A stretch of DNA of 64,000 bases from Streptomyces sp. CA-210063 (GTDB taxonomy: Bacteria > Actinomycetota > Actinomycetes > Streptomycetales > Streptomycetaceae), in NCBI RefSeq assembly GCF_024612015.1, contig NZ_CP102512.1, positions 1,984,001 through 2,048,000 on the forward strand. The letters run 5' to 3'. Each line of letters opens with the position of its first letter. The stretch's first letter is position 1. A program made the position numbers and the translations under genes. Shown here piece after piece: positions 3,963 through 52,757 of this stretch. The notes below the pieces were generated by a model. It had not been told where the DNA came from. It did not search any database and was given only the letters and a program-made list of their open reading frames with translations.

Positions 3963-4323
3963 GGCTCTCCTAGCCACCTGAGGAAATCAGGGATCGAAAT
4001 CCAGAGAAAGGAAATTCAAGACGTGACCCGCGACGAACACATGCCCCGAGGCGTCCACATCCTTTCCGGCAACACTGCCGTTGCAACAACAAGAACAAAT
4101 ACCAGGAATCACGCACTCCATGCACGTCGGAAGGGTCATCAGGGGCACGGGGGTATATCACCGGCGCACGGTCAAGAATGGTGCGCCTGGCATGCGCTCC
4201 ACCAACCGGGTGAACATCCATGGCATTGGGAGGTTTGGCTCGAAATCTCCACTCACCGCCATTTCCGCTGGGTACGGGAGACCCGAAAACATGCCGCCGA
4301 AATTCCCCGGAGGAAGCGCACGC
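3963..4323. promoter_or_regulatory. Divergent promoter region between oxidase and DyP peroxidase genes
   Basis: 361 bp, noticeably less GC-rich than its surroundings, with A-rich runs (for example around 3940-4015 and 4075-4110). It must carry both promoters. The peroxidase frame is open back to 4081, but that upstream peptide is not DyP-like and the ribosome site GGAGGAAG lies just before 4324. I could not fix individual -35/-10 boxes. Confidence 0.5.
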
Positions 4324-6252
4324 ATGTCCACGTACACGGCGCCGGCCGATCCCCAAAAGCCAACCGACCCGAAATCCCAGCTGTTCCTGCGCGAGGACAC
4401 CGAGATCCAGGGCGATGTACTCGCCGGGTTCAAGAAGGACCACATGCAGTTGGTGTTCCTGCGGTTCGAGGACCAGCAGATGACGCGCACATGGCTAAAA
4501 CAGCTGCGGCCGCTCATCGCCACGACCGGCCAGGTGGCGAAGTTCAACAGGGAGTTCTCCCGGGCCCGCCAGTACTCGGGCGGCGACGATCCGAAGAACC
4601 TGAACGCGCTGTGGTACGGCATCAGCTTCACCTTCGACGGGCTGAAGTTCCTCACCGGCAACAACCCGCTGCCCGGCGTCGGCAAGAACAGCACCGACGG
4701 CCCCCTGAAGGCCTTCATGGAGGGCCCGGCCAACCGTGCGGCGGCTCTCGGCGACACGGGGCAGAACGCCCCACAGAACTGGCTCTTCGGCAACTTCGGC
4801 GGCGGAAACGTCCACGCGGTGCTCACCCTCGCCGCCGACCAGGCGCACGTGCTGCGGGCCACCCTGGGAGACGTACGCCAGGACCTCGCCCGCGCCAAGA
4901 TCGTCACCGTCTACGAGCAGGAGGGCGCCACCCTCGAAGGTCCGCGCCGAGGCCGGGAGCACTTCGGATTCAAGGACGGCGTCAGCGAGCCGGCCATCAA
5001 GTACCTCGACGAGCCCGACCCCGAGCAGCCGCTCTACGAGAAGGGCCACCCCGGCACCCTCCTCATCAACCCCGGCGAGTTCGTCGTCGGCCTCGAGCGG
5101 GAGCGCCCGCACCCCCTGCCGTACCCGGAGTGGGCGCAGAAGGGCTCCTTCCAGGTGGTGCGCCGACTGGCCCAGGACGTCCCCGGCTGGTGGGCCGGCG
5201 TGGCCGAGCAGCTGAAGGTGCTGAAGGAGGCGAAGGCCGCGCCCCCGGAGGCGACGACCGAGTGGCTGGCGGCCCGGCTCGTCGGACGCTGGCGCAGCGG
5301 TACCCCGGTGGCGAAGTGCCCGCACGCCGACATGTCGTACAACGCGGAATCGTCGGGCGACAACCTGATCTCGTTCAGGGACGACCCCGAGGGCAAGGTC
5401 ACCCCGCTCTGGTCCCACCTGCGCAAGACCAACCCCAGGGACGGCTTCAAGGACCCCAGGACTTCCCAGTTCGTCGACGACACGAAGTTCAACCACCGCC
5501 GCCTCATGCGCCGCGGCATTCCGTACGGCCTTCCGTTCGACCCGTCCGCCTCGGCCCTCAACGGCCCGGACGCGCCCCGCGGTCTGGTCTTCGTCTCGTA
5601 CCAGGCCGACCTCTACCGGCAGTTCGAGTTCATCCAGCGGGACTGGATGAACGACGAGACGTTCCCCCAGCCCAACCCCAACACCCACCACGAGCAGATC
5701 GACCCCGGCCCGCACCCCGCCGGCGCCGACCCGGTGGCCGGCGAGGAGACCGTGGTCTCCTGGGTGCACGAGGGCAGCAGCGAGCCGGTCCCGCTGAAGT
5801 TCGCCCAGTTCGTACGGACCGAGGGTGCGGTGTACGCCTTCATGCCGTCGATCTCGGTCATCGACCAGCTGGCAGAGGGCCGGATGAACACCAACATGGT
5901 CGTCCACGGGAACACGGTCTTCACCTCCGACAGCTTCGACAACACGGAGCGGGACACCGTCGACTCGGGCACGGTGCGGCTGTTCCTGACGGAGGGCGGC
6001 GACCTTCAGGTCGTCGACAGCAAGAACAACAAGGTCCGCTGGTCGGCGAAGACCGCAGCCGGTCCGAAGGCGCAGGCGTGGTTCAAGGACGGGGAGCTCT
6101 TCGTCATCGACCCGAAGAACAAGGACAAGAAGCTCTTCAGCTCCGGCACCGCGGGCAACCCGGAGGCCCAACTCGTCGTCCAGACCGACGGGAATGTAGT
6201 CATCTACAACAAGGGCAAGGCGATCTGGCACACCAACACGGCCGGCCGCTGA
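4324..6252 (+). CDS. DyP-type heme peroxidase fused to a bulb-lectin-like domain
   Basis: 642 aa. Residues ~20-500 form a dye-decolorizing peroxidase: FGFKDG at 214-219 gives the distal Asp218 (GxxDG motif), SHLRKTNPR holds the proximal heme ligand His365, and RRGIPYG gives distal Arg397. Residues ~516-642 form a beta-prism lectin-like tail with repeated strand motifs and one clear mannose-lectin signature, QLVVQTDGNVVIY. No Tat or Sec signal is visible, although many actinobacterial DyPs are Tat-exported, so its location is uncertain. GGAGGAAG sits 7 bp before the ATG. Divergent pairing with an H2O2-producing oxidase suggests coupled oxidation; the lectin tail may target a glycan. The fusion is unusual. 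Confidence 0.88.
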   Translation: MSTYTAPADPQKPTDPKSQLFLREDTEIQGDVLAGFKKDHMQLVFLRFEDQQMTRTWLKQLRPLIATTGQVAKFNREFSRARQYSGGDDPKNLNALWYGISFTFDGLKFLTGNNPLPGVGKNSTDGPLKAFMEGPANRAAALGDTGQNAPQNWLFGNFGGGNVHAVLTLAADQAHVLRATLGDVRQDLARAKIVTVYEQEGATLEGPRRGREHFGFKDGVSEPAIKYLDEPDPEQPLYEKGHPGTLLINPGEFVVGLERERPHPLPYPEWAQKGSFQVVRRLAQDVPGWWAGVAEQLKVLKEAKAAPPEATTEWLAARLVGRWRSGTPVAKCPHADMSYNAESSGDNLISFRDDPEGKVTPLWSHLRKTNPRDGFKDPRTSQFVDDTKFNHRRLMRRGIPYGLPFDPSASALNGPDAPRGLVFVSYQADLYRQFEFIQRDWMNDETFPQPNPNTHHEQIDPGPHPAGADPVAGEETVVSWVHEGSSEPVPLKFAQFVRTEGAVYAFMPSISVIDQLAEGRMNTNMVVHGNTVFTSDSFDNTERDTVDSGTVRLFLTEGGDLQVVDSKNNKVRWSAKTAAGPKAQAWFKDGELFVIDPKNKDKKLFSSGTAGNPEAQLVVQTDGNVVIYNKGKAIWHTNTAGR

Positions 6253-6273: not shown

Positions 6274-6310
6274 CTGACAGCGCCCGCCCCACAAAGGCGG
6301 GCGCTGTCAG
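6274..6310. terminator. Bidirectional terminator between DyP gene and methyltransferase gene
   Basis: A perfect 15-bp stem (CTGACAGCGCCCGCC, 6274-6288, pairing with 6296-6310) and a 7-base loop lie 22 bp after the DyP stop. The right arm overlaps the methyltransferase stop codon at 6307-6309, so one hairpin serves both converging units. Confidence 0.85.
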
Positions 6311-7047
6311 TCCTTCGGGCCGATCAGACAGCAGTGCTGCCGCTCCGGTGCCGCAGGGGGGCGTACCTCGGCGGACGGAAACAGTGACCTCGCGTGGTCC
6401 GGGCTCCAGAGCACGTCGTACCGTCCGCACGGGCCGACCGGGGCGCTGGCGTCGAACAGCAGGCTCTGGTCCACGACCGCGCACCAGGGCGCCTCGCGCG
6501 CCCGCTCGACGGCGGCGTCCACGTGCGCCTCAACCGGGGGCGACGCCGTCGCGTTCCCCAGGGAGCAACTGCTCAGTCGCCACAGCACATTGGGCTGCTG
6601 CCCCTCGCCCGGTGGCGCCCAGCCCGGGTCGATGAAGGTGAAGGCGAGTATGCCGTCGTCGGTCAGCATCGACCGCAGCGCGTCCACCAGTTCCAGGGTC
6701 TCGTCGTCCGGGGTGTGGGTGAAGACGGAGTACGCGAGGACATAGTCGAAACGCGACCCCAGGTCGGGCAGCGCGAGCCCGCGGACGCCGCCAGGGTTGA
6801 ACTGCGGGTTGTACCGGTCGTAGAAGACCCAGTGGGCCCCCGGTTCGCGCCGTCGGCCCTCCTCGATCGCGGACCGCGACACGTCCACGCACCAGTAGAG
6901 CGACGGCTCGACCCGTCCCGCGGCCTCCGCCAGGAACGCGCCGATGTTCCCGCCGAAGTCCAGCACCCTGCGCCCCGACCAGTCCGGGCGGCCGAGCTGG
7001 GTGTCGAAGTAGGCGAACTGGCCGGTCTTGGTGGAATGGAAGGCCAT
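6307..7047 (-). CDS. Class I SAM-dependent methyltransferase
   Basis: 246 aa. Motif I is RRVLDFGGNIGAFL (residues ~26-39), the acidic post-I position is in YWCVDVS, and motif II lies around FDYVLAYSVFTHTPDD. This is a small-molecule methyltransferase fold, soluble and cytosolic. It is the last gene of a seven-gene leftward operon, 6 bp after the P450, and shares a terminator with the DyP gene. The substrate is unknown; by position it would act on the cluster's product. The C-terminal 80 residues (cysteine-containing, ending HCCLIGPKD) do not match a family that I know. Confidence 0.8.
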   Translation of the reverse strand: MAFHSTKTGQFAYFDTQLGRPDWSGRRVLDFGGNIGAFLAEAAGRVEPSLYWCVDVSRSAIEEGRRREPGAHWVFYDRYNPQFNPGGVRGLALPDLGSRFDYVLAYSVFTHTPDDETLELVDALRSMLTDDGILAFTFIDPGWAPPGEGQQPNVLWRLSSCSLGNATASPPVEAHVDAAVERAREAPWCAVVDQSLLFDASAPVGPCGRYDVLWSPDHARSLFPSAEVRPPAAPERQHCCLIGPKD

Positions 7048-7053
7048 GTGCGC

Positions 7054-8253
7054 TCACCAACTGACGGGGAGGGCGGCGAGTGCCTGCAGGCGCTGATGGT
7101 CCTTCCAGTCGGCCGACACCTCGGCGGCGGCCGGGCGCAGTCCGGGAAAGCGGGCCAGGAGCGAGGTGAGGCCGATGCGCAACTCCGCCCGCGCCAGATG
7201 GGACGCCAGACAGCGGTGGATGCCGTGGCCGAAGGCCACATGTGGATTGGGGTCACGGCCCAGGTCGAGGACTTCCGGGTCGGAGAAGACATCCGTGTCG
7301 TGGTTGGCGGAGTTGAGGGAGACCACGACGGACTCGCCGGCGCGGACGGTGACCCCGGCGATGTCCACGTCCTCGGTGGCCACCCGGATCTGACCGTCCC
7401 TCAGCACCAGGTGGTAGCGCAGCAGTTCCTCCACCGCGCGCTCCACCGACGCGGGGTCGTGCCGCAGCCGGGCGAGGTCGGCGGGCCGGTGCAGCAGGGT
7501 GCGCAGGGCAGAGGTCAGGGCGGTCGTCACCACCGTGTGGCCCGCGAACAGCAGGCTCACGCCCATCCCGGTCAACTCGGCGTCGGAGAGCGCGCCCTGT
7601 TCGTCGTGTGCCGCGACCAGGGCGCTGAACAGGTCGTCGCCGGGTCTCCTACGACGGGAGTCCATCAAGGTCTCCAGGTAGTCGCACATCTCCCGCTGGG
7701 CCCCGGTGATCCGCTCCAGGGGGCCCTTGCCGTTCATCGTGTCCGACAGGGCCAGGATCCGGTCGCTCTCCTCGACCGGGACGCCCAGCCAGGCGCAGAT
7801 CACGGCCATGGGCAGGGGGCGTGCGAAGTCGGCGACGAGGTCGGCGGGCGGGCCGGTCCCGGCCATGGCGTCGAGCAGCCCGTCGGTGATCTTCTGGATC
7901 AGCGACAGTGACCGCTCGACCTGGCGCGCCCTGAACTCCGGCATGACCAGCCGGCGCAGCCGGGCGTGGTCCGGCGGCTCGGTGTCCCGCAGGAGGGAGA
8001 CACCGGGCGGGAACGGAGTCGTGAACAACCTGGGCGCGTCGGACGCGGTGTTGGCCGTCACACCGAACCGCCGGTCGCGGAGCACCTGCCGTACGTCCTC
8101 GTACCGGGTCACCAGCCACACCTCGTGCCCGCTGGCGATGACCACACGGGTCACGGGTTCGTTCTCGCGCAGCCAGGCCAGCCTCTCGAACACCTCGGAG
8201 TGGACACGGGTGTCGAAGGGGAAGGCGACGGGCCGACAGTCCGGGACGGGCAT
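7054..8253 (-). CDS. Cytochrome P450
   Basis: 399 aa, normal for a bacterial CYP. The heme-binding loop is FGHGIHRCLAS with thiolate Cys348; the K-helix ExxR is EELLR (Glu276, Arg279). The I-helix reads FAGHTVVTTAL (236-246), so the usual acid-alcohol pair (AG-x-E/D-T-T) is replaced by Thr-Val, suggesting altered oxygen activation or a substrate-assisted mechanism. GGAGGG stands 6 bp before the ATG. It lies 20 bp after the acyl-CoA dehydrogenase and 6 bp before the methyltransferase, so all three are probably co-translated. No ferredoxin gene is adjacent; redox partners must come from elsewhere. Confidence 0.92.
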   Translation of the reverse strand: MPVPDCRPVAFPFDTRVHSEVFERLAWLRENEPVTRVVIASGHEVWLVTRYEDVRQVLRDRRFGVTANTASDAPRLFTTPFPPGVSLLRDTEPPDHARLRRLVMPEFRARQVERSLSLIQKITDGLLDAMAGTGPPADLVADFARPLPMAVICAWLGVPVEESDRILALSDTMNGKGPLERITGAQREMCDYLETLMDSRRRRPGDDLFSALVAAHDEQGALSDAELTGMGVSLLFAGHTVVTTALTSALRTLLHRPADLARLRHDPASVERAVEELLRYHLVLRDGQIRVATEDVDIAGVTVRAGESVVVSLNSANHDTDVFSDPEVLDLGRDPNPHVAFGHGIHRCLASHLARAELRIGLTSLLARFPGLRPAAAEVSADWKDHQRLQALAALPVSW

Positions 8254-8273
8254 CGCGTCCCTCCTCACTCGGC

Positions 8274-9515
8274 TCAGGGTTGGTGGAAGGACGGGTCGTG
8301 GTCCTCGCCGAGCACCGCGCGACCGATGGTGGCGAGGATGTGGTCGTCGTTGTCGTGGCGCTGGTAGAAGGTCAGGTCGCGCAGGATCCGTTCCACCGGG
8401 CTGGGACGGACCAGACTGCGGGCGCCGCAGGCCCGGATGCAGTGATGCACGGTCTCCTCCGCCAGGTGCTCGACGACGTGCCGGGCCTTGCTGCCCGCGA
8501 GCCTGGCCTCGTCCACCCTGCCCTCGTCCCACAACGCGGCGACATGGCGCAGCCACAGGCGGGCGGTGTCCACGTTGACCGCCATGCTGCCCGCCCGCTG
8601 CCGTACGTACGGGTCGCACCCCTTGCCCTGCTTCCTGAGGTACGCCAGTCCGTAGTCGTACGCCGCCTGGGCGGCGCCCAGGAAGCTGGAGGCGTAGTGG
8701 GGGACGAACGCGGCCTGCCAGTGCCCGGTGAGATAGCTGCCGGGCGCGCCGATGAGGTGGTCCCGGGGGATGAACGTGTCGTCGAACCGCACCAGATGGC
8801 TGACCGTCGCGCGCATGCCCCCCGGGTCCCACCACGCGCTGTCGACGCTCACGGTCGGGTCCGACAGATCGCAGGCGAGCATGAGCAGTCCGCTGCCCGC
8901 CGCCCGGCCGTTCCGGGCGGCCGGCGCGTGCCGTGCTCCGCCGGGTCCGGCGGGGTCGACGAACAGGACGGCCCACTGGGCGCCCGTGGCGCTGGTGGCG
9001 AACGCCTTGGTGCCCCGCACGGTCCAGCCTCCCTCGACAGGAGTGAGGGTGGTGCCGAAGCCGCTGGTCTCCCCGGGCTTGGGGGCCCGGGGCTCGCCGC
9101 TCCAGGCCACCCACTTCTCCCCTCGCTCGACCACGCCCGCGAACCAGCGCTGCTTCTGCTCGGGCGTTCCCAGGGCGTCGATGAGCACCAGGGAGTTGGC
9201 GTGTCCCTCCCAGCAGCGCGCCAGCGAGAGATCCGCCGAGGCCAGGACGGTCGTCAGCTCCCACAGGGGCAGCGTGTCGCGCTGCTGCGGGCCGAAGCCC
9301 AGTCCCCCGTACTCGTGTGGCACGGCGGCGGCCAGCAACCCGGCGGCGAAGAGGTCGTCGAAGTCCTCGGCGGGGAAGGCGGCCCTGCGGTCGTAGTCGT
9401 CCGCGCGGGCGGAGAACGTCTCCACGGCCAGCTTCCGTGCGCTGTCCAGGGCGGCACGATGCCCGAGAACGGGGCCGTGCGGCCCCTGCGAGCCGTGCGC
9501 CAGGTCGGCGGTCAT
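8274..9515 (-). CDS. Acyl-CoA dehydrogenase family flavoprotein
   Basis: 413 aa. The order fits the family: N-terminal helical domain (FAAGLLAAAVPHEYGG), middle beta domain with VAWSGEP and FATSATGAQW, and C-terminal four-helix bundle (SFLGAAQAAYDYGLAYLRKQ). Such enzymes do FAD-dependent alpha,beta-desaturation, or in related subgroups flavin hydroxylation; in natural-product loci they often act on carrier-bound or free acids. The usual catalytic Glu near the C-terminal helices is not evident to me, so a non-classical reaction is possible. Its ATG overlaps the stop of the small gene upstream (ATGA). Confidence 0.82.
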   Translation of the reverse strand: MTADLAHGSQGPHGPVLGHRAALDSARKLAVETFSARADDYDRRAAFPAEDFDDLFAAGLLAAAVPHEYGGLGFGPQQRDTLPLWELTTVLASADLSLARCWEGHANSLVLIDALGTPEQKQRWFAGVVERGEKWVAWSGEPRAPKPGETSGFGTTLTPVEGGWTVRGTKAFATSATGAQWAVLFVDPAGPGGARHAPAARNGRAAGSGLLMLACDLSDPTVSVDSAWWDPGGMRATVSHLVRFDDTFIPRDHLIGAPGSYLTGHWQAAFVPHYASSFLGAAQAAYDYGLAYLRKQGKGCDPYVRQRAGSMAVNVDTARLWLRHVAALWDEGRVDEARLAGSKARHVVEHLAEETVHHCIRACGARSLVRPSPVERILRDLTFYQRHDNDDHILATIGRAVLGEDHDPSFHQP

Positions 9516-9919
9516 GGGAGAGGAACCCCTTCCGGAGGTCCGGACGGCCGGGCGGGTCCCGGACGGTAGTAATGGGCGCGGTACATCGTGTTCGGCGCCC
9601 GCTGGTCGTCGGGGTGGGCCGTGTGGACGTCGATGGTCAGCAGGCCGCGGTTGAGATAGCCGCAGAGGATGACGTCCCGGGTGCCGAGCCGCGCTTCGGC
9701 GAGGAAGCCCACGGCCGGGCCGTCCCCGCCCGCGTCCACCAGTGGTGTGGCGGTGAGTGCGGTGCGGGTGCCGACGGCGCCGGGGCCGGCCTCGGCGATG
9801 CTCAGCGCGAGTCGGCCCTCGTCCTCGACGGCGTCGACGAGCCGGATGCCGAGGGCTGTGGTGTCGAAGTTGACCCACCCGCCGGTGAGCCCGGCCAGGT
9901 CGGTGTGCGGTGCCGTCAT
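9512..9919 (-). CDS. Small protein of unknown family, paralog of the adjacent gene (copy 2)
   Basis: 135 aa, starting at the ATG overlapping the previous stop, with GGAGGAGGG before it. It opens LAGLTGGWVNFDTTALGIRL and has VILCGYLNRGLLTIDVHT and a YRAHYYRPG end. The 142-aa neighbour shows the same layout (LSGDWLNTD, TVLCAYYKTGILVATA, SRSFFHRLE), so the two are diverged duplicates. Alternating polar and hydrophobic strands suggest an all-beta, barrel-like protein (lipocalin- or avidin-like topology is conceivable). No catalytic motif is recognised. Stop/start overlaps on both sides put it firmly in the operon. Confidence 0.75.
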   Translation of the reverse strand: MTAPHTDLAGLTGGWVNFDTTALGIRLVDAVEDEGRLALSIAEAGPGAVGTRTALTATPLVDAGGDGPAVGFLAEARLGTRDVILCGYLNRGLLTIDVHTAHPDDQRAPNTMYRAHYYRPGPARPSGPPEGVPLP

Positions 9920-10344
9920 GCGCCCTCCTCCAGCCGGTGGAAGAAGGAGCGGGACCACTCGCCGGGGCGCCCGCCGCCGTCGACGGGGACACGGGAGGCG
10001 GTGGCCACCAGGATGCCCGTCTTGTAGTAGGCGCAGAGAACCGTGCGGAATCCGCCGAGTTCGTAGACGGAGGAAAACGCCCAGGCCAGGGATGGTGTGC
10101 CCGGCGCGGTGTAGAGGACCGCCGGTACCTCACCCCAGTCGTACGGCTGCCCGCCCGCCGTGCTGCCGAAGGCCCGTACGGCGAGGCCCGTTCCGCGCGG
10201 GGCGACGGTCAGCCGGACAGGGCCCTTGGACACCGCTCCCCCGTCGGTGTTGAGCCAGTCGCCCGACAGGGCCGAGATGTCGGGGCTTTCCGGTGGGTAC
10301 GGCTCCGCCGATGGTGCCGCACCGGCCACCGAGGGCATGGTCAT
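9916..10344 (-). CDS. Small protein of unknown family, paralog of the adjacent gene (copy 1)
   Basis: 142 aa. After a Pro/Ala-rich start it reads ISALSGDWLNTDGGAVSKG, has a DWGEVPAVLY segment and ends WSRSFFHRLEEGA. It matches the layout of the gene at 9512-9919 (W-x-N-x-D near the N-terminus, cysteine-containing strand two thirds along, aromatic C-terminus). It is likely a beta-rich soluble protein; a heterodimer of the two copies is a reasonable guess. No signal peptide. It follows the nitroreductase gene by 36 bp, and its stop overlaps the next start. I do not recognise the family. Confidence 0.75.
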   Translation of the reverse strand: MTMPSVAGAAPSAEPYPPESPDISALSGDWLNTDGGAVSKGPVRLTVAPRGTGLAVRAFGSTAGGQPYDWGEVPAVLYTAPGTPSLAWAFSSVYELGGFRTVLCAYYKTGILVATASRVPVDGGGRPGEWSRSFFHRLEEGA

Positions 10345-10380
10345 GAGGTGTTCTCCCTCTCACAGATTCATGTGCCGGAG

Positions 10381-11082
10381 TCAGCCCCACTGGACGTACT
10401 CCTCGATGCGGGCCCGCGGGGGGACGAACCGGTTGACCGGTGCCGCCTCGTCGGGGTAGCCGACGGCCAGGGTGCAGACGATGATCCGATGGGTCTCGAT
10501 GTCCAGCCTCCGGCGCAGCACGTCCGCGTAGCCCGCGACGCTGAACTGCGGGCAACTGCCGAGGCCCCGGGCGACCAGCCCGAGCATGACGTTCTGCAGG
10601 AAGAGGCCGGTCTCCAGGAAGGTGCCGGGCACCGCGTCGCCGGGGACGTGGCAGACGACAGCGGCCGGGGCGCCGTAGAAGCGCAGATTGTCACGGAGGT
10701 GGTCCCGGGCGGCTGCCGTGTCGTCGGGGGCACGGCCCTTGGCTCGTAGGACTCCGGAGAGGGCCGCGCGGGCGCGTTCCACCGCGGTGTCGTCGAGCGT
10801 CGGCGGCCGGTTGGCGTAGTCCGGCCGTGCGGGCTCTCCCCGGTCGAAGGCTTCGCGGAGGCCACGGGTCAACGCGTCCAGGGTGCTGCCGGTCACCACG
10901 GTCACCCGCCACGGCTGGAGATTGCGGCTGGAGGGTGCCTGACCCGCGGCGAGGAACACCTCCGCGAGGACGCTCCGGGGCACCGGCCGGTCCAGGAAGG
11001 CGCGCTTGCAGTGACGGGACGCGATCAGGGACAGGCCGTCGTACGTCGGCTCGGTGTGTGCCGGCTCGGTGTGTGCCGTCAT
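10381..11082 (-). CDS. Nitroreductase-family flavoprotein
   Basis: 233 aa with typical features: an early SRHCKRAFLDRPVPRSVL segment, PSSRNLQPWRVTVV (FMN phosphate binding), a central helix LETGLFLQNVMLGLVARGLG and the C-terminal GYPDEAAPVNRF. Members bind FMN and reduce nitro groups, quinones or enones with NAD(P)H, or act as dehydrogenases in biosynthesis. GAGG lies 5 bp before the ATG. Second gene of the seven-gene operon, so a biosynthetic redox role is more likely than detoxification. The N-terminus carries a duplicated HTEPAHTEP. Confidence 0.88.
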   Translation of the reverse strand: MTAHTEPAHTEPTYDGLSLIASRHCKRAFLDRPVPRSVLAEVFLAAGQAPSSRNLQPWRVTVVTGSTLDALTRGLREAFDRGEPARPDYANRPPTLDDTAVERARAALSGVLRAKGRAPDDTAAARDHLRDNLRFYGAPAAVVCHVPGDAVPGTFLETGLFLQNVMLGLVARGLGSCPQFSVAGYADVLRRRLDIETHRIIVCTLAVGYPDEAAPVNRFVPPRARIEEYVQWG

Positions 11083-11123
11083 GGGCGCCTCACTTCTTCC
11101 GGCATCTCGACTCATCCGGCATG

Positions 11124-12614
11124 TCAACCCGCGCCGGCCGGGCGGATGTCGAGGCCGGGGTCGCCGTCGAGGAACTCGTGCAGACGGGTGCGGACCAATT
11201 CCTCGATGCGGTGGGCGCATTGGCGGTAGACCTCGGGCGACTGCCCTTCGGGGTTGGGGATGTCGCCGTGCGGGTCCAGACAGAGGGTGCGGTGCTCCGC
11301 GTCGGGCGCCAGGGCGACCACGGCGTCGCGGTGCGCGCGCGTCATGCAGTAGATGACGGAGCTGTCCCGGCACAGCTGGGGGGTGACCGGCCTCGCCCGG
11401 TGGCGGCGAGGATGGACGGGGCCCGGCACCCGCCGGATGCCGAGGTCGGCGAGCGCGGTCCGGGCGGCGGGGGCCAGCGGCGCTCCGCCGCGGGCGGGGG
11501 TGACTCCCGCGCTGGCGAAGCGCACCCGCCTCGCGGAACGTCCCGCCCGCACCGCGTGGTTCCTGGCGATGACCTCGGCCATGGGCGAACGGGAGGTGTT
11601 GCCGCCGCAGACGAACAGCACCCGCCGCGTGCCTATGCCGCGTTCCCGCCACCAGGAGGCCGTCGCGGGGTAGGACAAGGACACGATGGCGATGCCGATG
11701 AAGACGAGCGCGAGAAGCTGTGCGTCCCCCGGGACCGGCAGCCCGGCCAGTCCGGCGAGGGCGTACGAGGCGACCAGGCCGGACAGCAGGCTGGCGCACC
11801 GGTTCGCCGGGACGCACCAGGTGTACACGCGGCGGTCGAGGTAGATCAGCGTGCCGAAGACGAACAGCACCTCGTAGGCCACGCCGATCCCGAAGGCCCC
11901 CCAGGCGGCGGGGGTGCCGAGGAAGGTGGTGAACCCGGAGCGCAGCTCCGGCTGTCCCGCCAGGGCCGCGGCCGCCGAAATCCCGACCAGGAAAAGCGGG
12001 GCGGCGGCGTGCTCCTCCACGAAATAGCGGCGATCGGTTTCCTTCACTCCGGTCTTGGCCACGCGGCTCATGATCTCGAATCGCCCCACGTACCCGACGA
12101 GATAGGTGAGCACGCTCAGAACCGTCGCCAGAGTGAGGTGATAACTGTCCACATCGCCGAGAGCCACCGAGACCGCCAGCAGACTGAAAGCGAGAGCGGC
12201 CCACGCGGAACCCGAGACCTTTCGCTTACGTGCCGAGTCGACCAGCGGGGAAATGATCAGCACACCCCCACGCATCAGAAGCAACACAAGGAGGATGGAG
12301 ACACCGGCGAACGTGAAATTCAGCGTGGTGGTGCCGATGACGAGCGCGGTGAAGAACCCCGCCAGGAGCGTTTCTCTTCCCGGCCCGCGGACACGCCCCA
12401 CTCCGGGTATCTCATGCTGCCGGCCGTAACGCCACCATCCGCTGGCCGCCAGGAACAACGGCATGACGGCGAGTTGTCCGAGGGCGGCCGCCGGGAGCAG
12501 CACCAGACCGTCGACCGGGCTCCCGGCCAGCGGGGAAACCCCGGTGGCCATCGCTTTCACGAGCATGGCGTAGGGAATGTAGGCGAGAAAGTATCCGAGC
12601 GCGAGCCAAGCCAT
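11124..12614 (-). CDS. Membrane transporter-like protein fused to a low-molecular-weight tyrosine phosphatase
   Basis: 496 aa from the ATG at 12614, chosen because CCGGAGGACC lies 8 bp upstream; an ATG at 12683 is open but lacks a ribosome site. Residues ~1-320 hold about ten hydrophobic helices (for example LALGYFLAYIPYAML and GVSILLVLLLMRGG) resembling a drug/metabolite-transporter-like membrane protein. Residues 332-496 are an LMW-PTP/arsenate-reductase domain: VLFVCGGNTSRSPMAE gives the C-x5-R P-loop (Cys336, Arg342). The general-acid position reads DIPNPEG, with Asn454 where DPxG is expected. First gene of the leftward operon. The fusion is unknown to me; signalling, phosphate-ester hydrolysis or regulated export are all conceivable. 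Confidence 0.75.
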   Translation of the reverse strand: MAWLALGYFLAYIPYAMLVKAMATGVSPLAGSPVDGLVLLPAAALGQLAVMPLFLAASGWWRYGRQHEIPGVGRVRGPGRETLLAGFFTALVIGTTTLNFTFAGVSILLVLLLMRGGVLIISPLVDSARKRKVSGSAWAALAFSLLAVSVALGDVDSYHLTLATVLSVLTYLVGYVGRFEIMSRVAKTGVKETDRRYFVEEHAAAPLFLVGISAAAALAGQPELRSGFTTFLGTPAAWGAFGIGVAYEVLFVFGTLIYLDRRVYTWCVPANRCASLLSGLVASYALAGLAGLPVPGDAQLLALVFIGIAIVSLSYPATASWWRERGIGTRRVLFVCGGNTSRSPMAEVIARNHAVRAGRSARRVRFASAGVTPARGGAPLAPAARTALADLGIRRVPGPVHPRRHRARPVTPQLCRDSSVIYCMTRAHRDAVVALAPDAEHRTLCLDPHGDIPNPEGQSPEVYRQCAHRIEELVRTRLHEFLDGDPGLDIRPAGAG

Positions 12615-13069
12615 ACGCAGGGTCCTCCGGAGCGGCCCAGAAGAAGGGTTCGTCAATTCGCAGTGTGCAGGGATCCGATGCACCGCGCAAGTGCCTCAAG
12701 TCCCGGGATTTCAGGGGTAATTCCTCTCCGGATGCCGCTGTGGGACACATTGTTCGCGGTGTCGCACAGGAGCACGATTGACGTCATGGTGCGTGCGCCC
12801 CGCGTGCGCCGGTCGAATGCCCCAGCCCTCTGCCCGTGCGAGCTTGCGGATTCACGACAGATCCCGTATCCCGCGAAAATCGTAAAACGGTACTCGGGTT
12901 GAAATGGTGGTTCCCGATGGTCTGATCGCGTGGTGATATCCCCGCCCGGAACACAGACCGCCGTTCGGCCCAGTGACACGCCGTCGGGAGAGTGACCGCA
13001 GGGTTCGCACCACTGCGCGAGAGCCAGATCGAGGGTGATCCGAGCGAGCGCTTCCAGAAGGCGGTGGCG
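12615..13069. promoter_or_regulatory. Divergent control region of the unknown cluster
   Basis: 455 bp between the leftward operon (start 12614) and the rightward MFS gene (start 13070), with locally lower GC around 12780-12920. It must hold both promoters. It also contains a small leftward reading frame at 12653-12786. I see no convincing operator palindrome. Confidence 0.45.
12653..12786 (-). other. Possible small leader ORF, 44 codons
   Basis: An ATG at 12786 opens MTSIVLLCDTANNVSHSGIR and ends GSLHTAN. Its composition (Asn, Ser, Cys, Ile) is unlike the Arg/Pro-rich antisense shadows around it. No clear ribosome site precedes it and the frame is open further upstream, so translation is uncertain. 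It would lie just ahead of the operon, where a leader peptide or precursor peptide could sit. Confidence 0.2.
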
Positions 13070-14515
13070 ATGGGCCCACGAGTGCGGCGACGACCGAACG
13101 CGGTGGGGCCCTTGCTCATCTACTGCGCGCTGTCGACCACGATGGTGAGCTCGCTCGGCGCGTTGCTGATCCCCTCCATCGCCCGGGCGCATCACGTGCC
13201 GGTGAGTTCGGCCCAGTGGATGCTGACGGTGACCCTGCTCGTGGGAGCGGTGAGCACCCCGGTGCTCGGCCGGCTGGCCGACGGGCACCGCAGTCGGTGG
13301 GCGCTGGTGGGGGTGCTCGTCCTGACGCTGTCGGGTTCCTTGCTGGCCGCGATCGCCGCGACTTTCCCGCAGTTGCTGATCGGTCGGGCGCTCCAGGGCC
13401 CGGCCTGTGGAATGCTGCCGATGACGATCGCCCTGGCGCACCGTCACCTCGCCCCGGCGAAGGTGCCGGACGGCATCACCGCCCTCACGGTCACCGCCGC
13501 CACCGGGGCCGGGCTCAGTTTCCCGCTGACCGGCCTGATCGCCGAATACCTCGACCACCGCTGGGGGTTCTGGTGTGCGGCCGGCTTCGCCGCACCGGCC
13601 GTCGTGGGGGCCCTGCTGATTCTGCCCAAGGACGAGCGCCCGGCGGCCGGGCCGGGCGCCGGCCCCGGCGCGCTGTCCTCCTCCGCGCGCGCCGATCTGG
13701 CGGGCACCGTTCTTCTGGTGGCAGGTCTGGCGAGCCTGCTCCTCTTACTGAGCCAGGGGTCGCGTTGGGGCTGGACCTCCGCCATCGTGCTGAGCGTGCT
13801 GGTGGACGCCGGGCTGCTGCTCACCGCATGGGCATGGTGGGAGCGGCGCGTCGCCCAGCCGTTGGTCCGGCCCGAGTTGCTCGTCCATCCCGATGTGCTG
13901 CTGGCCAATTTCGCCACGGTCGTACTAGGCGCCGCGACGTTCATCGGTGTCTCCGCTCTCGCCACTCTCGTGCAAGTGCCCGTCGGCACGGGGTACGGGC
14001 TTGGGCTCTCGGTCTTCGCGGCCGGGTGTGTGATGCTCCCGTTCTCGGCCGGGAGCCAGCTCGCGGGCCGGCTGGCACGTCGTCCGGCCGTCCGCACGGG
14101 GCCGTACGCGCTGCTCTCGCTCGGCGGAGTCCTGCTCACCGGTACCCATGTCGCCCTGGCCGCTCACCACGACGAGTTGTGGCACCTGCTCCTCGCCATA
14201 CTGACCTTCGGCCTGGGCAGCAGCATCGTCTGGGCCGTCGTGGCCGCCCTGATCCACACCGCGGTCCCGGGCGGCGACCTCGGATCCACGACCAGCTTCA
14301 ACCATGTGCTCCGTGTCGTCGGCAGCGCGATCGGCAGCGCCGCGACCGGAGTGATCCTCGCCGCCCACACCGCCCCCGACGGCTACCCGACGGATGACGG
14401 TTACGTGGCTGTCTTCACTGTCTGCGCGATCGGTTGCACCGCCGTGCTGCTCGGCCTGCTGGTGCGTGCACTCGCCGAGCGACGACGGGCGCCGAAGTCG
14501 GGAACATCGGGGTGA
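13070..14515 (+). CDS. MFS transporter, drug:H+ antiporter DHA2-like, 14-helix
   Basis: 481 aa. The first helix region reads LLIYCALSTTMVSSLGALL; motif A appears as LGRLADGHRSRWAL after helix 2, and motif C-like glycines in helix 5. About 14 hydrophobic segments are present, as in EmrB/QacA exporters. The ATG at 13070 is preceded by GAAGGCGG; a GTG at 12992 is less likely. It is the first rightward gene of the cluster and the natural candidate for product export and self-resistance. Confidence 0.85.
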   Translation: MGPRVRRRPNAVGPLLIYCALSTTMVSSLGALLIPSIARAHHVPVSSAQWMLTVTLLVGAVSTPVLGRLADGHRSRWALVGVLVLTLSGSLLAAIAATFPQLLIGRALQGPACGMLPMTIALAHRHLAPAKVPDGITALTVTAATGAGLSFPLTGLIAEYLDHRWGFWCAAGFAAPAVVGALLILPKDERPAAGPGAGPGALSSSARADLAGTVLLVAGLASLLLLLSQGSRWGWTSAIVLSVLVDAGLLLTAWAWWERRVAQPLVRPELLVHPDVLLANFATVVLGAATFIGVSALATLVQVPVGTGYGLGLSVFAAGCVMLPFSAGSQLAGRLARRPAVRTGPYALLSLGGVLLTGTHVALAAHHDELWHLLLAILTFGLGSSIVWAVVAALIHTAVPGGDLGSTTSFNHVLRVVGSAIGSAATGVILAAHTAPDGYPTDDGYVAVFTVCAIGCTAVLLGLLVRALAERRRAPKSGTSG

Positions 14516-14728
14516 AACGGCGAGGCAGCCACAGCAGTTACCGGCGCCACGACGCTGAACGTCAACCGAGCCGCACAGTTGATCAATGCTTTCGAGGGAT
14601 GTCTGCCCACGTGGCTCTCCACCGCGTGCGCGCCTCCTTGATCATGTCGTCCCGTGCGGTCTACTGGCAGACGTTCGTCTGCCGGCCGCTGGCCAGTTCA
14701 CGAGGGTCCGCCCGGAGGAGTACATCCA

Positions 14729-16240
14729 GTGGCACGCATGAGACAGGGGGGGCGACGGGCACAGCTGGTGGCCGTCCTGACCTCTCCCGACGACCTCGAC
14801 CACGACCCGCTGAGCGGTGTCGACCCCCTCGCCGACGGGCTGGAGGTCCGTGCCGACCTGGTGGGTGACCCAGAACCGAGGTGGCTGCGGCGGAACTTCA
14901 CCGGCTCGCTGACGTACTGCCTGCGCAGCCAGCGGCACGGCGGTCGTCACCAGGGACGGTCCGGCGAGCGGCAGACCAGGCTGGCGCACGCCGCCGACCG
15001 GTACGACATGGTCGATCTCGAATGGCCCCACGACCTGACGCCCGACGTGCTGGCCCGCGTCCCACCCCACCGGCGACGGATCTCCTGGCACGGCGGGAAA
15101 ACCGGACGCGACGGGTTGTTCCGGATCTTCGACGCGATGGCGGCCGTCCCCGCGGCGCTGTACCTGCTGTCGGTAGGTCCGACCACCGAAGGCAGCACAT
15201 CGGCGCCGATGTTCCTCAGCGCCCTGGACCGGCCCGACGTCACGGCTTTCGCCTCCGGCCCGGCCGGGATCTGGACCCGGATCCTGGCTCCCTGGCTCGG
15301 TGCACCCGTGGTCTTCGGTCACGCCGGCGCCGAAGGGCCGGACGGGATGCCGAGCCTGCGTCAGCTCGTCGTGGACTACGGGCTGCCCGCCCTGCCTCGA
15401 CTCGATCATCTCTACGGCATCGCCGGTGTGTCTCCCGGCCGCTCGCTCTCTCCCCGCCTGCACAACACAGCCCTGCGCGCGCTGGGCCTGCGGGCGCTCT
15501 ACCTCCCGTTTCCGAGCCGCTCACTGTCCCACCTCCTGCACACGACGGCTTCCCTGGGGACACACGCGGGGCTCCCGCTGCGCGGCCTCACGGTGACGGC
15601 GCCGCACAAGGAGGACGCTCTGGCCCTGGCCGACACGGCCTCCCGGGCCGCGCGGGGCGCCGCCGCGGCGAACGTACTGTCGCTGGAGAACGGTCGCCGG
15701 CACGCCGACACCACCGACCCGGCAGGCGTGCTCGACTCGCTGGCCGCAGCCGGCATCGATCCGGCCGGACGCAGTACGGCCGTCGTGGGATGCGGGGGCG
15801 CCGGACGGGCCGTCGCCCTGGCGCTGCGTCAGGCCGGTGCCCGGGTGACCATGGTGAACCGGAGCCGGGACCGCGGTCTGCGGGCCGCCTCGCTGGTCGG
15901 CCTGCCGTTCGTGCCCCTCCCGGCGTTCTCCGCCCGAGGGCACTCGCTGCTGGTGCACGCCACCCCGCTGACCGACCGCCCTCCGTTCCAGCTCACGACC
16001 GCCGATCCCGGAGCCGTCGTGCTGGAACTCGTCTACGGGGAAGAGCCGACCGCGCTGATGACCGCGGCCCGCGCCCATGGGCTGCCCGCCATCGACGGCC
16101 GGTCGGTGCTGTTCATAGAGGTACGCGAGCAATTCAGGCTGCTGACCGGACACACGATGCCGGCAGACACCGCCCGTACCCTCCCGCAGGACGCCTCGGA
16201 GCACAGCACCGCGCTCTGCCCCGCGAAGGTGATCCCGTAG
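14729..16240 (+). CDS. Bifunctional-type dehydroquinase-like / shikimate dehydrogenase fusion
   Basis: 503 aa from the GTG at 14729, which has GGAGGAG at ideal spacing. Residues ~10-205 look like a type I dehydroquinase: EVRADL, LTYCLRS, DLEWP (Glu98) and ISWHGGKTG (His121). The Schiff-base lysine is absent: the segment that is PKIAVMP in E. coli AroD is VPAALYLLSVG here. Residues ~228-480 form a shikimate dehydrogenase with RSLSPRLHN substrate loop, catalytic Lys294 in TVTAPHKED, Asp330 in TTDPAG, NADP fold VVGCGGAGRA and a QFRLLTG end. The order matches plant DHQ-SDH. The SDH half looks active and the DHQ half altered. Placed between two transporters, it may shape a shikimate-like precursor. 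Confidence 0.85.
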   Translation: MARMRQGGRRAQLVAVLTSPDDLDHDPLSGVDPLADGLEVRADLVGDPEPRWLRRNFTGSLTYCLRSQRHGGRHQGRSGERQTRLAHAADRYDMVDLEWPHDLTPDVLARVPPHRRRISWHGGKTGRDGLFRIFDAMAAVPAALYLLSVGPTTEGSTSAPMFLSALDRPDVTAFASGPAGIWTRILAPWLGAPVVFGHAGAEGPDGMPSLRQLVVDYGLPALPRLDHLYGIAGVSPGRSLSPRLHNTALRALGLRALYLPFPSRSLSHLLHTTASLGTHAGLPLRGLTVTAPHKEDALALADTASRAARGAAAANVLSLENGRRHADTTDPAGVLDSLAAAGIDPAGRSTAVVGCGGAGRAVALALRQAGARVTMVNRSRDRGLRAASLVGLPFVPLPAFSARGHSLLVHATPLTDRPPFQLTTADPGAVVLELVYGEEPTALMTAARAHGLPAIDGRSVLFIEVREQFRLLTGHTMPADTARTLPQDASEHSTALCPAKVIP

Positions 16241-16313
16241 GCGTCGTGGCGGTCCGTCCGAGGCCACCGCACGCGCGTCGCGCCGAGCGGCCTCCCGCAC
16301 CCCTGGAGTCGCC

Positions 16314-17627
16314 TTGCCCCCCACCCACGTACCCGTGAAAGGCCGGACCGCCTTCGCCGACCCGTCCCGCAAGGCGATCAGGGCAGGGGCGATCGGCAAC
16401 CTCATCGAGTACTACGACGCGACGATCTACTCCCTGCTCGCACCCGTCTTCGCCCAGCAGTTCTTCCCCGTGGAGAACAAGGCGTTCGCGCTGCTCTACA
16501 CCTACGGTCTCGTGGTGGGCGTCGCCTTCGTCGTGCGTCCCGCGGCCGCGATGCTCCTGTCGCCCTACGGGGACCGGCGGGGCCGTCGCAAACTGCTCTC
16601 GCTCAGCCTGTTCCTCATGGGTTCGGGGCTGCTGATCATCGGCCTGTCGCCCACCTACCGCAGTATCGGTGTGCTCGCGCCCATCTGTCTCGTCGTCGGG
16701 CGGGCCGTGCAGAACGTCTCCAACTCCGGCGAATTCCAGGCGGCCTCCACCTTCATCGTCGAGCACGCGCCGGCCGACCGCCGGGCGACGACCGGCGCCG
16801 TCCAGTACATGACCGCCGGTCTCGGAATCCTGTCCGCCACGCTGGTGGCGACCACGCTCACCACCGTCTTCCCGAAGGAGGTGGTGGCCGACTGGGCATG
16901 GCGCATCCCGTTCCTGATCGGGGCGGCGCTCTGTCTCTACGGCTTCCGCCTGCGGCGCGCGGTTCCGGAGAGTCCGCTCTTCACCGCACTGCAGTCCACA
17001 GGGCAGGTCGAGAGCAAGCCGCTGCGGACGGCCGTGAAACGGTACCCGCGAAGCCTTCTTCTGGTGATGGTGATTCAGTTCAGCCAGGTCACGTACTTCA
17101 CCTGGCAGGTCTTCCTGCCCACGTACGCACACCTGGTCGGAGGGTTCCCGCTGAAGACCGGTCTGGCCCTGAACTGCGTCGCTCTCGCGGCCTTCGTGCT
17201 CGTGCTGCCCCTGGTCGGCATGGTCTCGGACCGGAAGACCGGCCGACGTCCGCTGATCATCGCCGAAGCCCTGGGCTTCGCGGTCCTCGCCTACCCGATG
17301 CTGCGCCTGTTGCAGCATCCGACGCCGCTCACCTACCTGCTGGTGGCGGTGGCCGGCAATCTGCTGCTCGCCCTCACCTACGGCAATGTCGCGGCGGTGT
17401 TCTGCGAGCTGTTCCCCACGGGGGTACGGACCTCCGGGGTCGGCCTGGCCTACAACGTCGCCGTCACGGTCTTCGGCGGCAGCGCGCCCATCATCGCCAC
17501 CTGGACCATCGGCCACGGCCGGCCACTCGCTCTCGGCTACTACATCCTCGCACTGGAACTGGCGGCCGCGATCATCTTTCTCGCCCTTCTGCCGGAGACC
17601 CGTGGGACGCGACTCGAGACGAAGTGA
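16314..17627 (+). CDS. MFS metabolite:H+ symporter (ShiA/KgtP-type)
   Basis: 437 aa from a TTG at 16314 with GGAG 7 bp upstream. The start of helix 1, IGNLIEYYDATIYSLLAP, and the loop SPYGDRRGRRKLL are signatures of the metabolite:H+ symporter group that imports shikimate, alpha-ketoglutarate or proline. Twelve helices; the end LLPETRGTRLE is typical. Lying 73 bp after the shikimate-dehydrogenase fusion, it may import shikimate or quinate, or another polar acid, for that enzyme. Export is less likely for this family. Confidence 0.88.
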   Translation: MPPTHVPVKGRTAFADPSRKAIRAGAIGNLIEYYDATIYSLLAPVFAQQFFPVENKAFALLYTYGLVVGVAFVVRPAAAMLLSPYGDRRGRRKLLSLSLFLMGSGLLIIGLSPTYRSIGVLAPICLVVGRAVQNVSNSGEFQAASTFIVEHAPADRRATTGAVQYMTAGLGILSATLVATTLTTVFPKEVVADWAWRIPFLIGAALCLYGFRLRRAVPESPLFTALQSTGQVESKPLRTAVKRYPRSLLLVMVIQFSQVTYFTWQVFLPTYAHLVGGFPLKTGLALNCVALAAFVLVLPLVGMVSDRKTGRRPLIIAEALGFAVLAYPMLRLLQHPTPLTYLLVAVAGNLLLALTYGNVAAVFCELFPTGVRTSGVGLAYNVAVTVFGGSAPIIATWTIGHGRPLALGYYILALELAAAIIFLALLPETRGTRLETK

Positions 17628-51923: not shown

Positions 51924-51927
51924 CCCG

Positions 51928-52587: not shown

Positions 52588-52757
52588 GGACTCGCCTTTC
52601 CCCTCCCCCGTCGCCCACCTCGGGCCTCCCAGCCCCGAGCATCACAGCTGAATCTCCTCCAGGATCCATTGGAACGCGAAAACCACTGCCGGTGCCAGGG
52701 TTCGGCCGGAGCAAGTTGTAGCGGACACCGGTGCGGAGAACGGGAGTTGGTCCCCCA

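Follow-up and report, generated by a model that had tools for sequence, protein, structure and literature searches.

Type I 3-dehydroquinase and shikimate dehydrogenase (SDH) domains are joined in one and the same order in the bifunctional enzyme of Arabidopsis (2gpt), in the bacterial model PRK09310 and in acidobacterial relatives encoded beside his genes. A dehydrogenase of this kind can also reside in a specialised cluster, RifI being described in PMC8788734 as an aminoshikimate dehydrogenase inside the rifamycin cluster, and a threonine at position PX5 of the phosphatase P-loop is said in PMC8001253 to steer selectivity to phosphoarginine. The present work analyses a window of 64,000 nucleotides from Streptomyces sp. 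CA-210063, which encodes a dehydroquinase-SDH fusion of that domain order together with a transporter-like/LMW-phosphatase fusion and an ACAD-fold flavoenzyme (Table 1). These three genes are the core of the cluster; two small predicted barrel proteins, here called C and D, usually accompany them, and a nitroreductase-type flavoenzyme often does so. Literature searches of open-access PMC, judged by titles and the openings of abstracts, showed no description of the gene set. The reading favoured here, which we hold to be moderately probable, is that of an undescribed family of biosynthetic gene clusters that makes and exports a small metabolite, the SDH substrate being related to shikimate without being shikimate itself.

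Seven leftward genes (6307-12683, minus strand), separated by gaps of 6, 20, 36 and 41 bp or joined by two 4-bp ATGA overlaps, stand opposite a rightward arm of exporter, SDH fusion and symporter (12992-17627, plus strand). The first-pass annotation had given this layout, and its coordinates and gaps proved correct, with Pfam and NCBIfam in agreement. Its statement that a standard scaffold enzyme is lacking also stands: profile searches found none among the ten cluster ORFs, and no PKS, NRPS, terpene or RiPP scaffold gene appeared among these and the 20 further window ORFs scanned. No regulator gene is present among the ten ORFs. Alternative starts exist for the SDH fusion (GTG 14729 or ATG 14738) and the symporter (GTG 16335 or TTG 16314). 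The conserved upstream block is exact in the window and in loci L084 and L024, carries one mismatch in L085, and in L021 and L023 has to be moved by one base to align; the other 14 of the 20 loci scanned gave no match. Rfam gave no match in the window at the gathering cut-off, and a single match in the intergenic region, which falls well short of it (17.1 bits, cut-off 100), is taken as chance.

Table 1. Features of the cluster in the window, with supporting evidence; loci are counted within the stretches fetched.
Feature	Coordinates	Strand	Evidence
SAM-dependent methyltransferase, optional tailoring	6307..7047	-	PF08242 43.8 bits, cut-off 30; 6/18 loci
Cytochrome P450, optional tailoring	7054..8253	-	PF00067 93.6 bits; 8/18 loci
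ACAD-fold flavoenzyme, core	8274..9515	-	PF02771/PF08028 above cut-off; 18/18 loci
Small paralog D, probable calycin barrel	9512..9919	-	homology to C; without Pfam/NCBIfam match
Small paralog C, predicted 8-stranded beta barrel	9916..10344	-	structure model; without Pfam/NCBIfam match
Nitroreductase-family flavoenzyme, accessory	10381..11082	-	PF00881 88 bits; structure 7dp1 E=3.7e-37
Membrane (transporter-like)/LMW-phosphatase fusion, core	11124..12683	-	PF01451 57.7 bits, residues 355-498; 17/17 assessable loci
Divergent intergenic region with conserved upstream block	12684..12991	.	block core 12820-12792 on minus strand
MFS efflux-type transporter, optional	12992..14515	+	PF07690 117.6 bits; 3/18 loci
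Type I dehydroquinase-like/shikimate dehydrogenase fusion, core	14729..16240	+	PF08501 and PF01487 above cut-off; 18/18 loci
Metabolite:H+ symporter, TIGR00883 group	16335..17627	+	TIGR00883 313.6 bits, cut-off 443.45; 4/18 loci

The grouping of these genes is more than chance, since they stand side by side again in other genomes. An SDH fusion and an ACAD-fold flavoenzyme share one cluster at 18 distinct loci, 17 of them in Streptomycetaceae (the window included) and one in a Blastocatellia MAG (L031). The transporter-phosphatase fusion is present at all 17 assessable loci and the small paralog pair (D, or in L031 a second C-like copy, beside C) at 17 of the 18, while L116 consists of the three core genes only. 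The co-occurrence of the pair with both fusions, on which the earlier annotation had staked its proposal, is thus seen across genomes and at one locus of another phylum. Because C served to find loci L021-L031, its presence at these loci is built into the sample; in a check independent of C, the SDH-fusion profile matched seven of 297 Streptomycetaceae genomes (window included), and all seven matches share a cluster with both the transporter-phosphatase fusion and the ACAD gene, six of them with C and D as well. The cluster is rare, occurring in 7 of 392 Streptomyces genomes. The proposed tailoring-like set holds as a coherent cluster of tailoring type; four of its genes, for the methyltransferase, P450, MFS exporter and symporter, lie outside the core.

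Left out of the locus counts were a streptomycete with the transporter fusion alone (L088), the decayed cluster remnants of two streptomycetes (L085 and L087), L090-L104, acidobacterial transporter-like homologues without SDH or ACAD (L078-L080), and L081/L082 of genome G926, where a phosphatase piece and an SDH fusion with its residues unchanged lie near two contig ends. Contigs judged identical by their lengths were counted once (L086=L027, L089=L026, L113=L029, L083=L031). Contig ends truncate loci L022 and L025; in L022 the break falls in the SDH fusion, and this locus is not assessable for the transporter fusion or nitroreductase; residue counts span 16 of the 18 loci for the SDH fusion, with L022 and L025 outside the set, and 17 for the phosphatase. 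Genes for a DyP peroxidase and a galactose-oxidase-like protein (2016-6252) were rejected as core members because they flank the cluster at only 7 of 18 loci (the window, L021, L022, L023, L024, L026 and L084); the stretches fetched for the remaining 11 did not show them. Of 150 Streptomyces genomes, 18 have a DyP relative, the window included, the others being 41-61% identical. No close DyP copy without the cluster was seen among these 150 genomes, and the gene may be co-inherited with the cluster.

The position of the SDH gene adds a further line of evidence. It lies between exporter and symporter in the window and in L084, and inside the operon at the other 16 loci. The window SDH fusion is 61% identical to that of L024, compared with 91% for the ACAD and 85% for the transporter fusion; its place in the tree is discordant, and the reciprocal empty sites can both be aligned. 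The gene has been swapped in the window lineage, the in-operon copy being gone and the more distant homologue standing in the other arm. Such a swap within the cluster suggests that the cluster needs its SDH enzyme.

That this enzyme is a fusion was confirmed, and its partner could be refined to a type I 3-dehydroquinase domain (PF01487, 34.8 bits, cut-off 22.2). The SDH half scores 47.4 bits with PF08501 (cut-off 27) and 124.2 bits with TIGR00507, below the cut-off of 200.2, and the family profile matches Arabidopsis 2gpt across both domains (E=2.8e-46). In the residue numbering that we assume for both domains, with Asn59 (or Ser) and Gln244 taken to be the shikimate contacts, the catalytic dyad Lys65/Asp102 corresponds to K291 and D327 of the window; the Lys is kept in 15 of 16 cluster copies (Arg in L111) and the Asp in all 16. 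Where the shikimate contacts are expected, the window has Thr (position 59, as in 16/16 cluster copies) and Glu (position 244, as in 15/16), while Ser14, presumably a carboxylate contact, is kept in 16/16. In the dehydroquinase half of the window, Schiff-base Lys170 is Leu, Glu86 is His and Gln236 is lost, leaving His143 of the residues sought in a type I 3-dehydroquinase. Glu86 and Gln236 are lost in all 16 cluster copies and Lys170 in 15, each of which has Leu; His143 is Gln or Arg in three. In the Blastocatellia copy Lys170 and Gln244 remain, whereas Glu86 is replaced by Phe and His143 by Arg.

Acidobacterial relatives outside such clusters keep Glu86, His143, Lys170, Gln236 and SDH Gln244 in 16 of 16 checked, with Ser (15) or Ala (1) at position 59. 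Among the 120 relatives listed, Lys170 is kept in 47, all of which keep Gln244, and lost in 73, of which 66 have Glu or Asp at 244. Thr at 59 occurs in 117 of the 120, including those 47 with Lys170 and Gln244, and Thr alone is therefore no mark of a new function. The residues suggest that one active site of the fusion, the dehydroquinase, has been lost and that the other, the SDH, has changed in step. Housekeeping does not depend on the fusion, since the genome also holds a type II dehydroquinase, a DHQ synthase and two further aroE-like genes. The earlier proposal of a product made directly from a shikimate-like cyclitol acid gains from the retained SDH dyad and loses by the lost dehydroquinase residues and by contact positions that differ from AroE; it is plausible, and unproven.

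The same residues bear on other readings of the enzyme. Producers often carry altered target copies, and a dyad kept while contact positions differ from those of the 16 relatives outside such clusters would fit self-resistance, in which a shikimate-pathway antimetabolite is made and the SDH fusion and symporter are insensitive target copies or a bypass, not biosynthetic. The nearest named relatives of the symporter include a shikimate transporter, and such an antimetabolite exists in cyanobacteria according to PMC6358636. We judge this reading rather unlikely, as a window dehydroquinase without Lys170, Glu86 and Gln236 should not replace AroD or AroQ, and the SDH gene is one of only three at L116, a locus with few other candidates for making a product. 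Alternatively, the Glu that 15 of 16 copies have at 244 would favour a positive charge on the substrate, and AroE, YdiB and other SDHs have iminosugar reductase activity in vitro as reported in PMC9881201; the SDH domain would then be an imine or amino-ketone reductase acting on an amino-polyol or iminosugar-like substrate, with a product not derived from shikimate. An aminotransferase or sugar enzyme is absent among the ten ORFs, which makes this unlikely. The retention of Ser14, the presumed carboxylate contact, also speaks against it, as do the named relatives of the symporter, mostly organic-acid carriers. The precedent of RifI might point to an aminoshikimate branch, as in AHBA clusters, yet this is highly improbable and was set aside because the genome has no second (amino)DHQ synthase: its single PF01761 match lies ~7 kb from an aroE-like gene. 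Nor do the ten cluster ORFs include an AHBA synthase, an aminoDAHP synthase or a kinase family.

The ACAD-fold enzyme of the window is 71-95% identical to the other streptomycete copies and 63% to that of L031. Its best structure match is 5z8t (E=1.4e-25), entitled 'Acyl-CoA dehydrogenase type 2 domain protein', thermophilic DszC (5xb8) matches at E=3.5e-19, and the nearest NCBIfam models are SfnB-type (80.7 bits, cut-off 430.9), then desulfinase and DszC-type. A conserved HDNDD segment, near the presumed place of the catalytic Glu, which we take to be MCAD Glu376 in this superfamily, occurs in 17 of 18 copies, with HDNAD in L116. The nitroreductase is full length at 10 of 17 assessable loci, shortened or fragmentary at five and not found at two. 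The nearest NCBIfam model of the P450 is pentalenolactone synthase (238.6 bits, far under the cut-off of 700) and that of the MFS exporter the DHA2 efflux family (86.3 bits, cut-off 230.2). ShiA, TcuC and ProP are the nearest named relatives of the symporter, which scores 226 bits with the TcuC model (cut-off 445) and 177.6 with the shikimate transporter model NF007414 (cut-off 538); its loci include L111, and a 33% match in L028 was not counted.

Symporters, P450s and ACAD-fold enzymes occur in catabolism too, and the nearest ACAD families include sulfur-acquisition and desulfurisation enzymes. The locus might accordingly be a catabolic or detoxification island that imports an organic acid and degrades it via symporter, SDH, flavoenzymes and P450. 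We think this quite improbable, given a symporter at only 4 of 18 loci and ten ORFs that include neither a ring-cleaving nor a CoA-ligase family; the rarity of the cluster in Streptomyces (7/392) and the remnants L085 and L087 suit specialised metabolism better, though not exclusively.

Of the transporter-phosphatase fusion first annotated, the phosphatase half is borne out by PF01451. The membrane half has no Pfam model above cut-off, for which reason a known family was set aside; its N-terminal helices are predicted (mean pLDDT 67.5), and a transporter role is deduced from these helices only. The best fold match of the fusion model is the arginine phosphatase YwlE, to the C-terminal part, and all 50 fold matches listed for the whole model (pLDDT 67.5) are LMW phosphatases; at that confidence they say nothing about the membrane half. 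The P-loop C-x5-R reads VCGGNTSRS in the window, with Thr at PX5 in 17/17 copies; where the general-acid Asp is expected, ten of the 17 copies, the window included, have Asn and seven have Asp. C and D, initially described as two small paralogs, are homologous (BLASTP 23% over 116 aa, E=2e-6), with no match among Pfam/NCBIfam models. The structure model of C is an 8-stranded avidin/lipocalin-like (calycin) barrel; D is a probable calycin barrel by homology to C, and the two probably form a heterodimer.

For the favoured biosynthetic reading, we infer substrate, order of steps and product, set beside the computed gene content, conservation, discordant SDH phylogeny with empty sites, residue changes and barrel of C. 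The SDH domain would act as an NAD(P)-dependent redox enzyme on a ring carboxylate that is a relative of shikimate and not shikimate itself, supplied by primary metabolism or symporter import, and the ACAD-fold enzyme would then oxidise the intermediate, perhaps using reduced flavin from the nitroreductase. C and D would bind an intermediate or the product, which the transporter-phosphatase fusion would dephosphorylate and/or export; in the window clade, P450, methyltransferase and MFS exporter may further decorate and export it. A bolder proposal, which we regard as doubtful, is a new class of specialised metabolism built on a ring acid other than shikimate, the product of a dead-dehydroquinase/SDH fusion; the ACAD would oxidise this acid, a heterodimeric avidin-like barrel would carry it and a transporter-phosphatase of P-N (phosphoarginine) type would release it, with an N-phosphorylated intermediate or protoxin. 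If the favoured reading is true, the cluster would add a way of making small molecules which, in our judgement, search tools built around scaffold enzymes would overlook, with the transporter-phosphatase fusion, the altered dehydroquinase/SDH fusion, the ACAD and the C/D pair as a probe set. It would also be a test case for the reuse of a primary-metabolism fusion enzyme, and its barrels a further example, beside streptavidin, of calycins in a metabolite cluster.

Compared with bifunctional DHQ-SDH enzymes, the cluster fusion keeps the SDH Lys/Asp dyad (15/16 and 16/16 copies), yet in all or all but one of the copies dehydroquinase Lys170, Glu86 and Gln236 are replaced and SDH positions 59 and 244 are Thr and Glu. 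It resembles the RifI/AHBA clusters (PMC8788734) in that a dehydrogenase gene of this kind serves a specialised cluster, and differs from them in the lack of a second DHQ synthase in the genome and of an AHBA synthase or PKS among the ten ORFs. The cluster phosphatase has the P-loop Thr in common with the arginine phosphatases YwlE and PtpB of the LMW-PTP family, but is fused to a membrane domain and has Asn for the general-acid Asp in 10/17 copies. The ACAD shares its fold family with SfnB/DszC-type enzymes, its nearest named sequence families, whereas its scores lie far under the curated cut-offs of every model listed. As for the streptavidin of biotin-antimetabolite clusters, identity is 8-15% in nearly all matches listed and, unlike streptavidin, C and D are two paralogs that probably pair.

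The ten genes of the cluster lie on the strands and with the gaps and overlaps that the first-pass annotation had given them. Transcription of the leftward arm proceeds from a transporter-like/LMW-phosphatase fusion (the transporter-phosphatase) through a nitroreductase, the small proteins C and D and an ACAD-fold flavoenzyme (ACAD) to a P450 and a methyltransferase, while the rightward arm comprises an MFS exporter, a fusion of type I dehydroquinase and shikimate dehydrogenase (the SDH fusion) and a symporter. Gene families were assigned with Pfam and NCBIfam models, to none of which C or D has a match; the two are distant paralogs (23% over 116 aa, E=2e-6). EamA is no more than a label for the transporter-phosphatase's membrane half, to which no Pfam model lends support above cut-off. 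The claim that a standard scaffold gene is missing also holds for the ORFs scanned: no PKS, NRPS, terpene synthase or RiPP core enzyme is encoded among the ten cluster ORFs and 20 further ORFs of the window.

Positions of the features discussed, in the window unless another locus is named
Feature	Position	Strand	Reading
Galactose-oxidase-like and DyP-peroxidase genes	2016-6252
Cluster	6307-17627
ACAD	8274-9515	-
D	9512-9919	-
C	9916-10344	-
Transporter-phosphatase	11124-12683	-
Conserved upstream block with repeated GGCGCAC-type element	12792-12820		candidate operator
SDH fusion	14729-16240	+
Genes for TIR and radical SAM proteins	46594-55154
Acidobacterial transporter-phosphatase homologue and neighbours	L078:4190-13499
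Oxygenase genes after the Blastocatellia cluster	L083:14583-18494

When 84,980 genomes were scanned by two peptide patterns, a profile built from C, its 15 relatives and D identified 11 loci, of which ten belong to Streptomycetaceae and one to a Blastocatellia MAG. By tblastn of the window proteins, the same genes are present at these loci, and the streptomycete ones follow the gene order of the window, the SDH gene excepted. Two further queries, independent of C, were the transporter-phosphatase and SDH-fusion profiles. The former matches 7 of 392 Streptomyces genomes, in the form of four clusters with SDH fusion and ACAD (window included), two decayed remnants and one solitary gene (L088). 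The latter, at E<=1e-60, matches 7 of 297 Streptomycetaceae genomes, window included; each of the seven copies is clustered with the transporter-phosphatase and ACAD genes, and six of these clusters also contain C and D. In the two remnants (L085, L087), the transporter-phosphatase gene outlasts most others. The transporter-phosphatase profile, applied to 296 genomes of the class, recovers the window plus two sequences matched only in the phosphatase part. It has eight matches in 396 acidobacterial genomes, and within the fetched stretches (five of the eight followed in full) the cluster is found only in the genome of the Blastocatellia locus, L031. One acidobacterial homologue, at L078, is accompanied by neither SDH nor ACAD; its neighbours are an octopine-dehydrogenase-family gene, an arginase-family gene and an FAD/NAD-binding protein, perhaps a different pathway sharing this exporter type.

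In all, 18 distinct loci were counted (the window, L084, L021-L031, L111, L112, L114, L115 and L116). The small paralog pair, the transporter-phosphatase and the SDH fusion, whose co-occurrence the first-pass annotation had proposed as a check, recur together (17/18, 17/17 assessable and 18/18 loci, respectively), the SDH fusion of L022 being cut at a contig end and both pair members of L031 being C-like. ACAD is likewise present in all 18. Of the 17 loci that can be assessed for the nitroreductase, 10 carry a full-length gene and five (L025, L027, L028, L114, L115) a shortened or fragmentary one; in L116 and L031 it was not found. The P450 (8/18), methyltransferase (6/18), symporter (4/18) and MFS exporter (3/18) are more sporadic. 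Since L116 contains just the transporter-phosphatase, SDH fusion and ACAD, these three define the minimal core. The gene set reads best as a biosynthetic cluster whose SDH domain acts on an acid related to shikimate; a catabolic island is a rival account of the same genes.

Galactose-oxidase-like and DyP-peroxidase genes, 74-93% identical to those of the window, border the cluster in 7 of 18 loci and may be co-inherited neighbours. In L111, GGGGCGCAC-type repeats lie near the start of the transporter gene. On the Blastocatellia contig (L083), genes for two luciferase-like monooxygenases, one TauD-family dioxygenase and one PhyH-family dioxygenase come after the cluster, and the product there may therefore be tailored differently. 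Elsewhere in the window is a possible defence island, where genes for a TIR/NB-ARC/TPR STAND-like protein and for a radical SAM protein weakly matched by a viperin model (PADLOC pVip E=1.9e-7) lie close to that of another protein whose TIR match is below cut-off.

The SDH gene is part of the operon in 16 loci; in the other two, the window and L084, it is enclosed by the exporter and symporter genes. Identity between the window and L024 is 91% for ACAD and 85% for the transporter-phosphatase, and 61% for the SDH fusion. Trees of ACAD and of the transporter group the window with the clade of L021-L026 (forks 99/99 and 97/98); the SDH tree places it in a different clade, of nine rows (100/99), alongside proteins from S. 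sannanensis, Kitasatospora and S. chattanoogensis. Both flanks of the window's SDH gene align to the exporter-symporter junction of L024, and both flanks of L024's in-operon gene align to the window's nitroreductase-C junction. On the simplest account, in a direction and order that are inferred, the in-operon copy was lost and a divergent copy gained, and this suggests that the cluster depends on the SDH enzyme.

The SDH-fusion family profile aligns to Arabidopsis DHQ-SDH across both domains, and residue positions follow AroD/AroE numbering. All 16 cluster copies keep dehydroquinase Glu46, Arg48, Arg82 and Arg213 and replace Glu86 and Gln236; Lys170 is Leu in 15, with Lys in L031. The SDH domain retains Asp102 in 16/16 and Lys65 in 15/16 (Arg in L111), and has Thr at position 59 throughout and Glu at position 244 in 15/16 (Gln in L031). 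An NR-x-x-x-R segment that comes after the nucleotide-binding loop and is associated with NADP occurs in 12 of 16 copies, with His in three and Leu in one. An iminosugar-type reductase (PMC9881201) is a rival to the reading in which the SDH domain acts on a shikimate-related acid.

The wider SDH-fusion family is large (at least 1440 proteins at E<=1e-60). Among the 120 matches listed, position 59 is Thr in 117; the 47 that keep Lys170 all have Gln244, and among the 73 that have lost it, Glu or Asp stands at 244 in 66. The two active sites have thus changed together, a pattern and not a statistic, as the listed relatives are not mutually independent. Matches at E<=1e-80 occur in 24 of 396 acidobacterial genomes; 15 of 23 places (that of L031 excluded) with room around them, together with one further genome (G926), gave 16 copies for comparison. 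All 16 retain Glu86, His143, Lys170, Gln236 and SDH Gln244, with Ser at position 59 in 15 and Ala in one; these fusions therefore look like ordinary bifunctional enzymes. By family clustering, his-type genes lie nearby in 14 of 15 acidobacterial regions, the exception being L094. Three regions were scanned with his models: those for hisG and hisD exceed cut-off wherever they were tested, and the fusion is followed by a hisZ-like gene that scores below cut-off. In L090-L093 and L095-L104, a dehydroquinase-SDH fusion that retains its active-site residues lies near histidine-biosynthesis genes, so that one operon combines shikimate and histidine genes. Besides its fusion, the window's genome encodes two other aroE-like genes, one type II dehydroquinase and one DHQ synthase. 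Two further rival accounts read the cluster fusion as a resistance copy, or the cluster as an aminoshikimate branch, the weakest of the rivals.

The cluster is rated an orphan family with a robust, testable core, and searches of the open-access literature listed no description of this gene set. Among known systems, streptavidin provides a precedent for a product-binding barrel (PMC13336041).
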